A model generated the notes under the pieces. The model ran no database searches, had not been told where the DNA came from, and saw nothing but the letters and a program-made list of their open reading frames with translations. The position numbers and the translations under genes are program-made. Positions 52,883 to 55,890 of a stretch of DNA of 64,000 bases are shown here, piece after piece. Source of the stretch: Aphanizomenon flos-aquae FACHB-1287 (GTDB lineage: Bacteria; Cyanobacteriota; Cyanobacteriia; Cyanobacteriales; Nostocaceae); assembly GCF_014698755.1 (NCBI RefSeq), contig NZ_JACJTO010000002.1:124001-188000 (forward strand), given 5' to 3'. The number at the start of each line of letters is the position of its first letter. Position 1 is the first letter of the stretch.

Positions 52883-52940
52883 TTATATGTTATGATCTTA
52901 TTTGTCAGTTTTTGTATTGCACAATTCTGGCAAATACTCT

Positions 52941-53025
52941 GGAGAGGTGGCAGAGTGGTCGAATGCGTCCGACTTGAAATCGGATGAGGTGAAAGCTTCC
53001 GGGAGTTCGAATCTCCCCTTCTCCG
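52941..53025 (+). tRNA. tRNA-Ser (anticodon UGA)
   Basis: 85 nt. Acceptor stem GGAGAGG pairs with CTTCTCC (one G-U), discriminator G; D-arm region TGGCAGAGTGGTCGAATG; anticodon loop CTTGAAA with TGA; long variable arm typical of class II tRNA-Ser; T-loop GTTCGAATC. CCA is not encoded. A T run follows the gene, probably a terminator. The AAA ATPase island begins 229 bp downstream. Confidence 0.97.
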
Positions 53026-53253
53026 TTTTTTTAGTTTTTATCTCACGCAGAGGCGCGGAGTCTCAGAGAAGAGCATAAGAGTTTGATTTGGAAATATTAA
53101 ATTTGCTGTAAGGTAAGAGTTAGTTTTGCTATTATTCCAGATATAAACTTTTAAATATGTAATTCAGCAATAGGTATGATTTGCTGAATTTACGAATAAT
53201 GGTAGGGTGTAGTCAATTGGAGATTTCTAACCCTAATTAAAATTAAATGTGTC

Positions 53254-54666
53254 ATGAAAATAGAAATTGCTAACTTAGGTGTTATTGAAAAGGCAGAAAT
53301 TGATTTAAAGCCTTTAACTGTCTTTATTGGTGGTAATGGAACAGGGAAAACTTGGACAGCTTATACTTTAGCCTCTATATTAGGTGAATATGGATGTGAG
53401 AGATATTGGCAAGCTTATCTGGATAAAAAGACTCAACAGAGATATCCCATTATAGATAATGCGGTTGAAGAATTTTTACAAGAAGGAACTGTTCGGATTG
53501 ATTTAATTGAATTTGCTGAAGAGTTTATTGAAACATATATCAATGATGTTTCTGATTTAGCACATAGCTGGATGAATAAATTTCTAGCCACAGATCGTGT
53601 TGATTTTAAAAAGATGAAAGTGAGCTTTGATTTAGCAGTAGCTAAACCAGCAATATTAAATAATCTTAAAAAAGATTTTATAGATCAACAGTTATCTTTT
53701 GGTACTCAAAGTAAAGATACTTTACATATTCTCAAGGAATTAGGTGACAGTAAGATTTATTTATATATACTTTCAAGTTCCGAAGAAAATATTTTGAAAA
53801 AATTACCTAAAAGAGCCTTTGAGCAGATTTTACTTAAATTAATTTTTAGAACAATTCACAGGTTTTTTCATTTGGAAACTTATATATTTCCTACAGAAAG
53901 AACAGGAATTTTACCGCTCTTTTCTTCAGCTATAAAAATTAAAAATTACATAAATATTGAAGATATTTATGATGATGATCTTGATGAGAATGTAAAAAGT
54001 CTTTCATCTATGAAACTAAGCATACCAGTACAAGATTTAAAATTGACACTAGAAAGCATATACATAAAAACATCATCACAAAGAGAAAAAGAAATACAAC
54101 TTTACCCAGAAGTTTTGGAATATCTTAAATTAGCAGAAATTTTAGAACATGATATTTTGGGAGGAAAAGTCAATATTGAAAATTCTAGCTTTGATCAAGA
54201 AATTCTTTATCAACTATCAGAAAATATTAAGTTAGAAATGACAGTTTCTTCTTCAATGGTAAAAGAATTAGCTCCGTTAGTTTTGTGTTTACGTTATTTC
54301 GCTGTACCAAATGAATTACTAATTATTGATGAACCAGAAGTGAATTTACATCCAGCAGCGCAAGTACAAATGATCGAATTTTTAGCAATGTTAGTTCAAG
54401 CAGGTTTGAAAGTGTTAATTACAACTCACAGCCCTTATATAATTGATCATCTAGCTAATTTAATGAAAGCTGCTAAATATGAAGATAAAGAAAGTCTCAA
54501 AGAACGATTTTATTTAGAGCGAACAGAAGCTTTTATTCCTCAAGAAAAAGTTTCTGTTTATCTATTTGAAGATGGTACAGCTAAAAATATATTACATGAA
54601 GACGGTAGGATAGATTGGGGAACATTTGGGAATGTTTCAGATGACATTTCCCATATTTTTCCATAA
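53254..54666 (+). CDS. AAA family ATPase (OLD/AAA_21-like), first gene of a candidate defence pair
   Basis: 470 residues of SMC/OLD-like ABC ATPase type: Walker A GGNGTGKT (26-33), a long divergent middle (about 60-320, lid or coiled arms), a signature-like SSSMVKELAPL, Walker B LLIIDEPEVNLHP (about 360) and switch His in TTHSPYI. Such ATPases pair with nucleases in several anti-phage systems. The nuclease-like gene starts 37 bp downstream. Codon use is strongly AT-biased, no HIP1 octamer is seen, and IS scars follow, all pointing to an acquired module next to tRNA-Ser. Confidence 0.85.
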   Translation: MKIEIANLGVIEKAEIDLKPLTVFIGGNGTGKTWTAYTLASILGEYGCERYWQAYLDKKTQQRYPIIDNAVEEFLQEGTVRIDLIEFAEEFIETYINDVSDLAHSWMNKFLATDRVDFKKMKVSFDLAVAKPAILNNLKKDFIDQQLSFGTQSKDTLHILKELGDSKIYLYILSSSEENILKKLPKRAFEQILLKLIFRTIHRFFHLETYIFPTERTGILPLFSSAIKIKNYINIEDIYDDDLDENVKSLSSMKLSIPVQDLKLTLESIYIKTSSQREKEIQLYPEVLEYLKLAEILEHDILGGKVNIENSSFDQEILYQLSENIKLEMTVSSSMVKELAPLVLCLRYFAVPNELLIIDEPEVNLHPAAQVQMIEFLAMLVQAGLKVLITTHSPYIIDHLANLMKAAKYEDKESLKERFYLERTEAFIPQEKVSVYLFEDGTAKNILHEDGRIDWGTFGNVSDDISHIFP

Positions 54667-54703
54667 TCACTCTTATAATCTTAAGTTCAGGAGTGATTTT
54701 AAA

Positions 54704-55231
54704 ATGCCTTTCGATCATTTATTGTTATCATGTTGTTTACTACCAGGAAAAACAAGTCATAAAGAATATGGTGTGGAAGTAAGTTTACAACCAGCAAGTG
54801 GTGAAACAGTTTTATTTTTTCATATAGACGAGAAATCGAACCCTAATTGTAAATTTCGTAAATTATTAGGATTAGATAGAGAAGGAATGAAAATTTGTGA
54901 TCTCATTGTATTTTATGCAAAAGACAATGAAAGGATTATCTGCTTTGTAGAATTGAAGGGTGGTGACATAAAAAGAGCTACAGAGCAAGTTAAAACTACA
55001 TATTACTACTTTAACGAATTTCTCAAAAAGTTTAATTCATCATTAAAGTTTACTGCAAAAACCTATATTGTATATGATGGTTCTGCACCACAAGAATTTG
55101 ATAGATACAAAGAAGAATTAAAGGCTAAGTTTGGTGAAGGGAACTATAGAATTTATAGAGATTCAGATTTAGGTAATTTTTTGCGAGGTGCGAAGTATCA
55201 ACCGAAAGGAAAACCAAAGAAGGGTAAATAA
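54704..55231 (+). CDS. Small PD-(D/E)XK-like nuclease, second gene of the candidate pair
   Basis: 175 residues from ATG 54704, chosen because AGGAG lies 10 bases upstream; the open frame itself begins at 54626 inside the ATPase gene. A likely nuclease core is CDLIVFY (Asp66) followed by ICFVELKGGDIKRATEQ (Glu83, Lys85), the D...ExK spacing of PD-(D/E)XK enzymes. The C-terminus is basic (KYQPKGKPKKGK). I know no named family for it. Its stop lies 2 bp from the IS630 remnant, so the last residues could be altered by the insertion. Confidence 0.72.
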   Translation: MPFDHLLLSCCLLPGKTSHKEYGVEVSLQPASGETVLFFHIDEKSNPNCKFRKLLGLDREGMKICDLIVFYAKDNERIICFVELKGGDIKRATEQVKTTYYYFNEFLKKFNSSLKFTAKTYIVYDGSAPQEFDRYKEELKAKFGEGNYRIYRDSDLGNFLRGAKYQPKGKPKKGK

Positions 55232-55233
55232 TT

Positions 55234-55664
55234 TTACCACTTTAGTAATTGCCTTATCAAATCAAAACGCATTTCTTGTACTCTTTGTGTTTTTTGCTCA
55301 CTGGCTACTAAAGTTTTTTTACGTCTTAAATCTAAGCGTTTTAGAGTTCGGGATAAACTGGATATACTTACCTCTATTTTTGTTTGCTCCTTTATTGCTG
55401 CTTGAATTTCCCGTAAATATATATCATTCTGCTCTATCACTATTTTTTCAATAATTCTTCCTCTTTACCTTTAATTAAAGAACGGCGGTCTCCACCTTTA
55501 GGTTTGGGTTCTATTTTCCCCGTTTCTCTATATTGGCGGAAAAATTCACTGATAAATGATAGGCTCACTTTAAATCTCGCTGCTAACTCTCTTTGCGTGC
55601 CTTCTTTATTTTGGCAAGCACTTAATATTTTTTGTCTTATATCAGTCGAATATTTCAATCTCAT
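55234..55664 (-). pseudogene. Truncated IS630-family transposase (N-terminal part)
   Basis: Two frames on the minus strand join by a -1 shift at six As (55443-55448): MRLKYSTDIRQKILSACQN...KGKEEELLKK and then IVIEQNDIYLREIQAAIKEQ...RFDLIRQLLKW. The HTH part (TQRELAARFKVSLSFISEFFRQYRETG) and the second HTH match IS630 transposases. The DDE catalytic domain that should follow VQEMRFD is gone. The shift may be the programmed frameshift used by some IS630 elements, so it need not be a decay mutation. Confidence 0.75.
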
Positions 55665-55683
55665 GTGAAAATTTACGAGAATT

Positions 55684-55890
55684 GAAGCGGAACGCCATTC
55701 CAGTCCATCAGAAGCCATAATCGATAGTCAAAGTGTAAAAAGTGCGGCGATGGTGAGTCGGAAAATAGGATATGATGCGGATAAACAAATCAAAGGGCGA
55801 AAGCGGTTTATGACCGTTGGGGTGGATTCTGCGGATGTTAGTCGCCGCCGCCAATGTACCAGAGCGATGCTATGATCCGGATCATGGTGA
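55684..55890 (+). pseudogene. IS5-family transposase fragment
   Basis: The plus strand reads PSEAIIDSQSVKSAAM...IGYDADKQIKGRKRFMTV and, after a frame change near 55815, GWILRMLVAAANVPER. IDSQSVK, GRKRF and VLV-type segments are the DDE region of IS5-family transposases. Both ends are missing and it abuts the IS630 remnant. Confidence 0.72.

Follow-up and report, generated by a model that had tools for sequence, protein, structure and literature searches.

The window analysed here (a stretch of 64,000 nucleotides from contig C12 of a cyanobacterial genome of 4.35 Mb) contains two adjoining genes that raise a question: Do an ATPase and a small protein with nuclease-like residues constitute a defence module and, if so, has its design been described before? 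A preliminary description of the sequence had proposed such a two-gene module, placing it between a tRNA-Ser gene and the wreckage of an insertion sequence. The features of this region are as follows.

52940..53026, + strand: tRNA-Ser(TGA), bounding on its left the variable site in which the pair lies
53254..54666, + strand: gene A, OLD/ABC-type ATPase, PD-T4-4_A-like, 470 residues (ORF, Pfam, PADLOC)
54667..54703, + strand: intergenic gap between A and B, 37 bp
54704..55231, + strand: gene B, PD-(D/E)XK-like partner, 175 residues from its ATG (ORF, orthologue alignment, hhalign)
55234..55718, - strand: IS630-like transposase fragments, two short ORFs directly behind B (Pfam)

The arrangement first described is thus borne out: both frames are open, the short gap and the flanking elements are present, and Asp66, Glu83 and Lys85 occupy the positions given for them in B, for which an alternative reading of 201 residues starting at TTG is also available. 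Presumably the two genes form one transcript; promoter-like sites (13 in the region, against 11.3 +/- 3.4 in shuffled sequences) and terminator-like sites (2 against 1.0 +/- 1.3) show little or no excess. No ORF of the window next to the pair encodes a methyltransferase. Among the matches of the IS630-like fragments, HTH_33 (9.7e-7) passes the Pfam cut-off, while HTH_28 (7.2e-5) and HTH_Tnp_IS630 (0.0065) fall short of it. These fragments are absent from the relatives compared, in which similarity to the window stops where B ends.

Linkage of the two genes across genomes

The preliminary description depended on the two genes being linked in other organisms, and the pairing is real. Gene B is present in 19 of the 388 genomes searched in the order, and 18 of these have a same-strand homologue of A immediately before it. 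The 18 comprise 15 full pairs, one genome whose A is cut and followed by a remnant of B (G261), one with A and a largely deleted B (G181) and one with a distant pair (G155). The exception, G282, has a lone remnant of B of 65-75 residues. Seen from the side of the ATPase, close homologues of A (at least 47% identity, partial ones included) occur in 15 of 376 genomes, 12 of which have B directly behind; the others are G261 with its remnant, G181 with its deletion, and G375, the contig of which stops 62 bp past A. By rough arithmetic, a random site would lie just behind a match of the A profile with a chance of about 1 in 700, this profile matching 12 places in the 4.35-Mb genome of the window.

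A profile of B alone, containing no information on A, matched 19 of 339 genomes of the phylum. Eight of the matches are distant small proteins, one of them belonging to the G155 pair already counted, and seven of the eight sit behind a homologue of A (L182, L183, L185, L186, L188, L189 and L197); those behind kin of A also match PDC-M29B. The eighth match, in genome G083 (L187/L198), is a B-like small ExK protein with no recognisable A homologue near it and with a 622-codon open frame of unknown kind downstream on the same strand. Behind more distant homologues of A, a D...ExK protein was found in 14 of 15 loci, two of these proteins being broken (L048, L059); at L052 there is no ORF of at least 80 residues within 500 bp behind A.

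The damaged pair of G181 (L101) has an intact A, 92% identical, followed by a B from which codons 4 to about 149 are gone. The deletion is the counterpart of window positions 54713-55149, leaving the start and the last 26 or so codons of B. Loss of B with retention of A would fit a costly effector, in this one case.

The site behind tRNA-Ser(TGA)

In eight of the 15 intact pairs, A and B immediately follow the tRNA-Ser(TGA) seen in the window, which itself comes after nadA and a metallophosphoesterase gene (mpp), and the damaged pair of G181 is placed likewise; six pairs lie elsewhere (L096-L100, L103) and one is on a contig too short to tell (L018). The site was compared in 49 loci, comprising the window, eight loci chosen for carrying A and 40 loci without A that were hand-picked from 141 genomes with mpp, a selection for which 9 of 49 is not a frequency. 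All 49 loci keep mpp and the tRNA gene, and what follows downstream varies. Similarity to the window ends at 53027-53131, that is 1-105 bp past the tRNA, in 40 of 40 loci without A (the first alignments ending at 53027-53028 in 22 of them), and it extends beyond 53300 in all eight carriers of A. Ordinary intergenic divergence in distant genomes explains part of these ends on the left side. On the right side, similarity ends at 55221-55234 in the four of four carriers compared, B itself ending at 55231.

In two carriers (L091, L094) the pair is located between the tRNA and genes of clusters c8, c1, c6, c0 and c16. Genes of these clusters stand elsewhere behind other cargo, and L161, L163 and L171 have them almost next to the tRNA; these three are near-empty examples of the site among the loci compared (L089-L095, L101, L134-L173). 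A search of the 64-kb window for an att repeat, defined as a copy of the 14-20 nucleotides at the 3' end of tRNA-Ser with at most two mismatches, returned only the tRNA itself, and no integrase gene could be recognised next to the two genes.

The other cargo of the site, judged from 61 scanned ORFs, includes at least two C5 methyltransferases, at least two TnpB/Cas12f-like proteins, at least three GTPases and at least four TPR proteins, and the matches listed also take in ordinary genes, for instance one for a cyclophilin. A pure defence island is therefore rejected on account of mixed cargo. The outcome of the earlier proposal to look for the pair in defence islands is a variable site behind tRNA-Ser in Nostocaceae, rather than a demonstrated island of defence genes.

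Kinship of the ATPase and its small partner

Gene A matches the Pfam families AAA_15 (4.2e-23) and AAA_21 (5.6e-13), and no TOPRIM family appears among its Pfam matches at E<=1; by its domain content the protein is thus predicted to lie outside the TOPRIM-bearing classes of OLD nucleases. Its top PADLOC model is PD-T4-4_A (8.9e-60, residues 1-442 of 470 on profile positions 1-416 of 460), followed by PDC-M47A (4.2e-52), a second PD-T4-4_A model (3.9e-45) and then AriA (6.2e-26). Both PD-T4-4_A models and PDC-M47A are matched at <=1e-30 by all 14 aligned orthologues of A. We take the stretch from residue 26 (GGNGTGKT) to be the Walker A motif, that from residue 332 to be signature-like, that from residue 355 (LLIIDEPEVNLHP) to be the Walker B/D-loop and that from residue 391 (THSPYI) to be the H-loop; the invariant residues of the orthologue alignment take in the Walker A, Walker B/D-loop and H-loop stretches. 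Sequence comparison with solved structures places A nearest to an AAA family ATPase (22bu, 7.9e-7), an OLD-family protein (6p74, 1.6e-6) and chains of retron PtuA. The AlphaFold2 (AF2) model of A, with a pLDDT of 50.6, is too weak to argue from.

Neither Pfam nor NCBIfam contains a family that the small protein B matches at E<=1. As a single sequence it matches only weakly the PADLOC models PD-T4-4_B (2.9e-4, 18.7 bits over 94 residues), PDC-M29B (0.0013), HEC-02B (0.002) and PDC-M47B (0.0099-0.011), all of which are small partners of defence ATPases. PDC-M29B is matched by 14 of 15 orthologues of B, the best at 8e-7, and the PD-T4-4_B model PDLC04034 by only 4 of 15 at <=0.01; a search of 148 genomes with PDLC04034 did not find the B of the window at E<=0.001. 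Across these 15 orthologues, made up of the B of the window and 14 more that share 49-83% identity with it, 35 columns are invariant, including G33-E34, C65-D66, E83-L84-K85 and Q95. We assume that the layout E34/D66/E83-x-K85/Q95 represents a PD-(D/E)XK active site. Comparison of the window gene with its orthologues gave NG86 dN/dS values of 0.21-0.38 for B over 14 orthologues, in the most distant of which dS approaches saturation, and of 0.20-0.41 for A over 13 pairs, hence purifying selection on both genes. On the basis of the invariant columns and dN/dS, the D...ExK motif of B is more than a chance occurrence.

The AF2 model of B, built from three sequences, is of low confidence (pLDDT 55.9, pTM 0.50). 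Its order of elements (H3-12, E24-31, E34-40, H50-54, E65-73, E77-84, H89-110, E119-123) fits the PD-(D/E)XK core and places D66 and E83/K85 on neighbouring strands. A Foldseek search of this model against PDB found nothing at E<=1e-3, the best E being 0.10 and the highest probability, among the best 50 rows, 0.60 for the nickase N.BspD6I; a search of solved structures with the B profile returned nothing at E<=10. Given the low confidence of the model and the lack of significant Foldseek matches, the designation of B as a predicted PD-(D/E)XK nuclease is founded upon its motif and its profile kinship.

This kinship was evaluated by aligning the B profile, using hhalign, with partner proteins of kin ATPases from other genomes. 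The partner types take their names from PADLOC, which assigns PDC-M47B to L053 (8.3e-79) and L060 (1.4e-40) and PD-T4-4_B to L054 and L051 (about 1e-19); a further type of about 308 residues is without a name, its member L046 having no Pfam or PADLOC match at 0.01. The scores were 30.2 for the PDC-M47B type (7 sequences, E 5.6e-4, probability 29.9%), 32.1 for the PD-T4-4_B type (2 sequences only, E 2.8e-4, probability 40.7%) and 49.0 for the 308-residue type (4 sequences, E 8.3e-7, probability 91.6%). In the controls, the best of 200 column shuffles each reached 23.7, 22.9 and 23.1, respectively, and the reversed B profile scored 13-15. Window residues D66 and E83-x-K85 align with the D and ExK of all three partner types; the hhalign probabilities are modest. 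The preliminary description had found no family to name for B and hinted at an undescribed design; this does not hold, B being related to partners of the PD-T4-4_B and PDC-M47B types.

Are the types of nuclease associated with particular lineages of the ATPase? A tree of 36 ATPases was examined, comprising 14 of window type, 7 with M47B partners, 5 with 308-residue partners, 5 with PD-T4-4_B partners, 3 PDC-M29-like and 2 viral; it excludes L020, which is missing from alignment A2, L048 and L059, whose partners are broken, L052, behind which no partner was seen, L188 and L197, where the homologue of A is partial, and 20 viral loci out of 22. The partner label changes five times on this tree, the minimum for six labels, while shuffled labels changed 20.2 times on average and in 0 of 200 shuffles so few times; in this sample, therefore, ATPase and nuclease types travel together. 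ATPases of window type form a single clade (100/99), found only in one cyanobacterial order among the genomes searched, and those with PD-T4-4_B partners are not one clade, having the M47B clade among them. The tree does not fix how its three large branches are ordered (89/81), and it came with a warning of long branches. The genome of the window holds two further pairs of this kind: one on contig C1 (L087:4929-7245), with an A of 477 residues and a 307-residue D...ExK partner lacking a family name that overlap by 41 bp, and one on contig C2 (L088:4354-6305), with an A of 463 residues and a 186-residue partner of PDC-M47B type that overlap by one base.

How does the pair compare with systems already known? 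According to Vassallo et al. (2022, PMC9519451), PD-T4-4 protects E. coli; it came to light with T4 as the selecting phage and is carried by an ICE-like element. A review files it under PF13175 and the PD(D/E)XK family (PMC10952713). PD-T4-4, compared here via its PADLOC models (PDLC04032-04037), shares with our pair two genes on the same strand, a PF13175 ATPase first and a PD-(D/E)XK-like protein second, and PD-T4-4_B partners occur behind kin of A in the same cyanobacterial order. It differs in that the B of the window matches PD-T4-4_B only at the weak level given above and A falls in a separate clade. With the phage-defence candidate PDC-M47 of PADLOC the pair shares the strong match of A to PDC-M47A and the presence of a PDC-M47-type pair in the same genome, whereas its B is far from the score of a true member such as L053 and its ATPase belongs to another clade. 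For the candidate PDC-M29 the situation is the reverse: nearly all orthologues of B match PDC-M29B, while the A of the window matches PDC-M29A only at 7.2e-16.

Another close precedent is WonAB of V. cholerae, with which we group the ABC-ATPase survey of Krishnan et al. cited in the same paper (PMC12137116). That paper describes WonAB as similar to PD-T4-4, from which WonA differs in inserts and a C-terminal extension, and as related to an operon given as 'OLD-ABC ATPase + Novel REase'. Compared by description only, WonAB and our pair have in common their organisation, an OLD-like ATPase without TOPRIM and a small PD-(D/E)xK effector, predicted as such in the case of B; WonB differs in being a protein of 16.1 kDa. 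Both genes and the active-site residues of ATPase and nuclease are reported to be required, infection being aborted after the onset of DNA replication with phage and host DNA intact; over-produced WonB halts translation only with an active WonA ATPase, the target proposed for it being rRNA or tRNA (PMC12137116; account repeated in PMC12409358). Literature searches combining 'cyanobacteria' with 'PD-T4-4' or with 'PDC-M47' found no paper, which is no proof of absence since preprints and most subscription journals lay outside the search.

PARIS, Gabija and Septu likewise combine an OLD/AAA_21-type ATPase with a nuclease. The match of A to AriA (6.2e-26) ranks well below that to PD-T4-4_A (8.9e-60), as do those to PtuA (3.2e-12) and GajA (2.1e-11). 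Septu is ruled out also by the lack of an HNH match in B, Gabija by the lack of TOPRIM in A and of a UvrD-like partner, PARIS by the ranking of AriA, and a TOPRIM-bearing OLD nuclease by HMM ranking and domain content of A. The earlier judgement that the partner resembles neither PtuB nor AriB nor GajB is accordingly upheld by the Pfam and PADLOC rankings; the broader suggestion of an undescribed system survives in part, the kind being already described and tested and the sub-lineage being new.

Mobile elements offer some further observations. Viral contigs L062-L072 carry homologues of A followed by a 205-residue partner with D...ExK-like residues, for which in L063, the one tested, neither Pfam nor PADLOC gives a match at 0.01. 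In viral contigs L074-L079 and L081 the A homologues are followed by a protein of about 190 residues with a conserved SVDYF...LEFSDL that is unlike ExK, perhaps another type of effector. A search for B itself in viral contigs confirmed none of 134 pattern stretches, and plasmid or phage records gave no match to B at E<=0.01. A Klebsiella plasmid of 4.26 kb that is classed as non-mobilizable (CP067514.1:2340-2837) encodes, as do two sister plasmids, an ATPase sharing 32% identity with A across 36% of its length.

Proposed mode of action and its alternatives

The favoured interpretation, which we regard as probable, is that A and B would together make up an anti-phage module of two genes, of the PD-T4-4/WonAB kind, in which an ATPase gates a PD-(D/E)XK nuclease. 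By analogy with WonA, the ATPase, which has no nuclease domain of its own, would dimerise on ATP, sense a consequence of infection and then hold or release B. The latter would be a metal-dependent nuclease using E34, D66, E83, K85 and Q95; once licensed by A it would cut nucleic acid, and infection would be stopped. The outcome would most likely be abortive, an uncertain step because Vassallo et al. (PMC9519451) report direct immunity for 7 of 11 systems of the DNA binding or cleavage type, a figure not specific to PD-T4-4. That the abortive outcome might arise from an RNA target and a halt of translation, as proposed for WonB, can be put forward only tentatively.

The main rival is direct restriction, in which an ATPase-gated B would cut phage DNA without death of the cell; its substrates could be DNA ends, replication intermediates or modified bases. 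PD-(D/E)XK enzymes are mostly DNases and the pair has no accompanying methyltransferase, so that self would be spared by sensing; the proportion of direct immunity among systems of the cleavage type also points this way. Against it stands WonAB, the best-studied relative, which reportedly spares DNA, acts after the onset of replication and inhibits translation (PMC12137116), and we consider direct restriction unlikely, if still the most serious competitor. Alternatively, B could be a catalytically dead PD-(D/E)XK-like adaptor, with A working via another effector. The low-confidence fold of B would leave room for such a case, which becomes very improbable in view of the five putative catalytic residues being invariant in 15 of 15 orthologues and of D and ExK being kept in other partner types too.

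A role unrelated to phages would be exclusion of plasmids or other mobile elements, DNA repair, or addiction as a toxin-antitoxin module. OLD/RecF-like ATPases serve repair too, and the retention of an intact A in G181, with most of B deleted, implies that A can persist without B. This role looks rather improbable to us given the patchy presence of B (19 of 388 and 19 of 339 genomes), the variable site and the kinship with tested defence pairs; moreover, WonAB as reported is unlike a sequestering toxin-antitoxin pair, since WonB needs WonA for toxicity (PMC12137116). Returning to the ATPase-gated module of the PD-T4-4/WonAB kind, the pair is real, conserved and most likely defensive, and of a kind already described.

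In evolutionary terms, what is new is a sub-lineage with a nuclease that the libraries searched (Pfam, NCBIfam, PADLOC) do not name. A more ambitious proposal, somewhat doubtful at present, is that the pair could represent a third type of the PD-T4-4/WonAB kind, confined to Cyanobacteriales, in which ATPase and nuclease would be inherited as a unit with no exchange of partners and both sensor and target would differ from those of PD-T4-4 and WonAB; one genome would then layer the window, 308-residue and PDC-M47 types as a set with different triggers. The finding extends the experimentally founded PD-T4-4 and WonAB to a distinct cyanobacterial lineage, of which the libraries searched recognise only the ATPase. 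The three types present in one genome provide a natural series for relating the sensing of the ATPase to the target of the nuclease, and the tRNA-Ser(TGA) site behind nadA and mpp in Nostocaceae is a place to seek variable genes.
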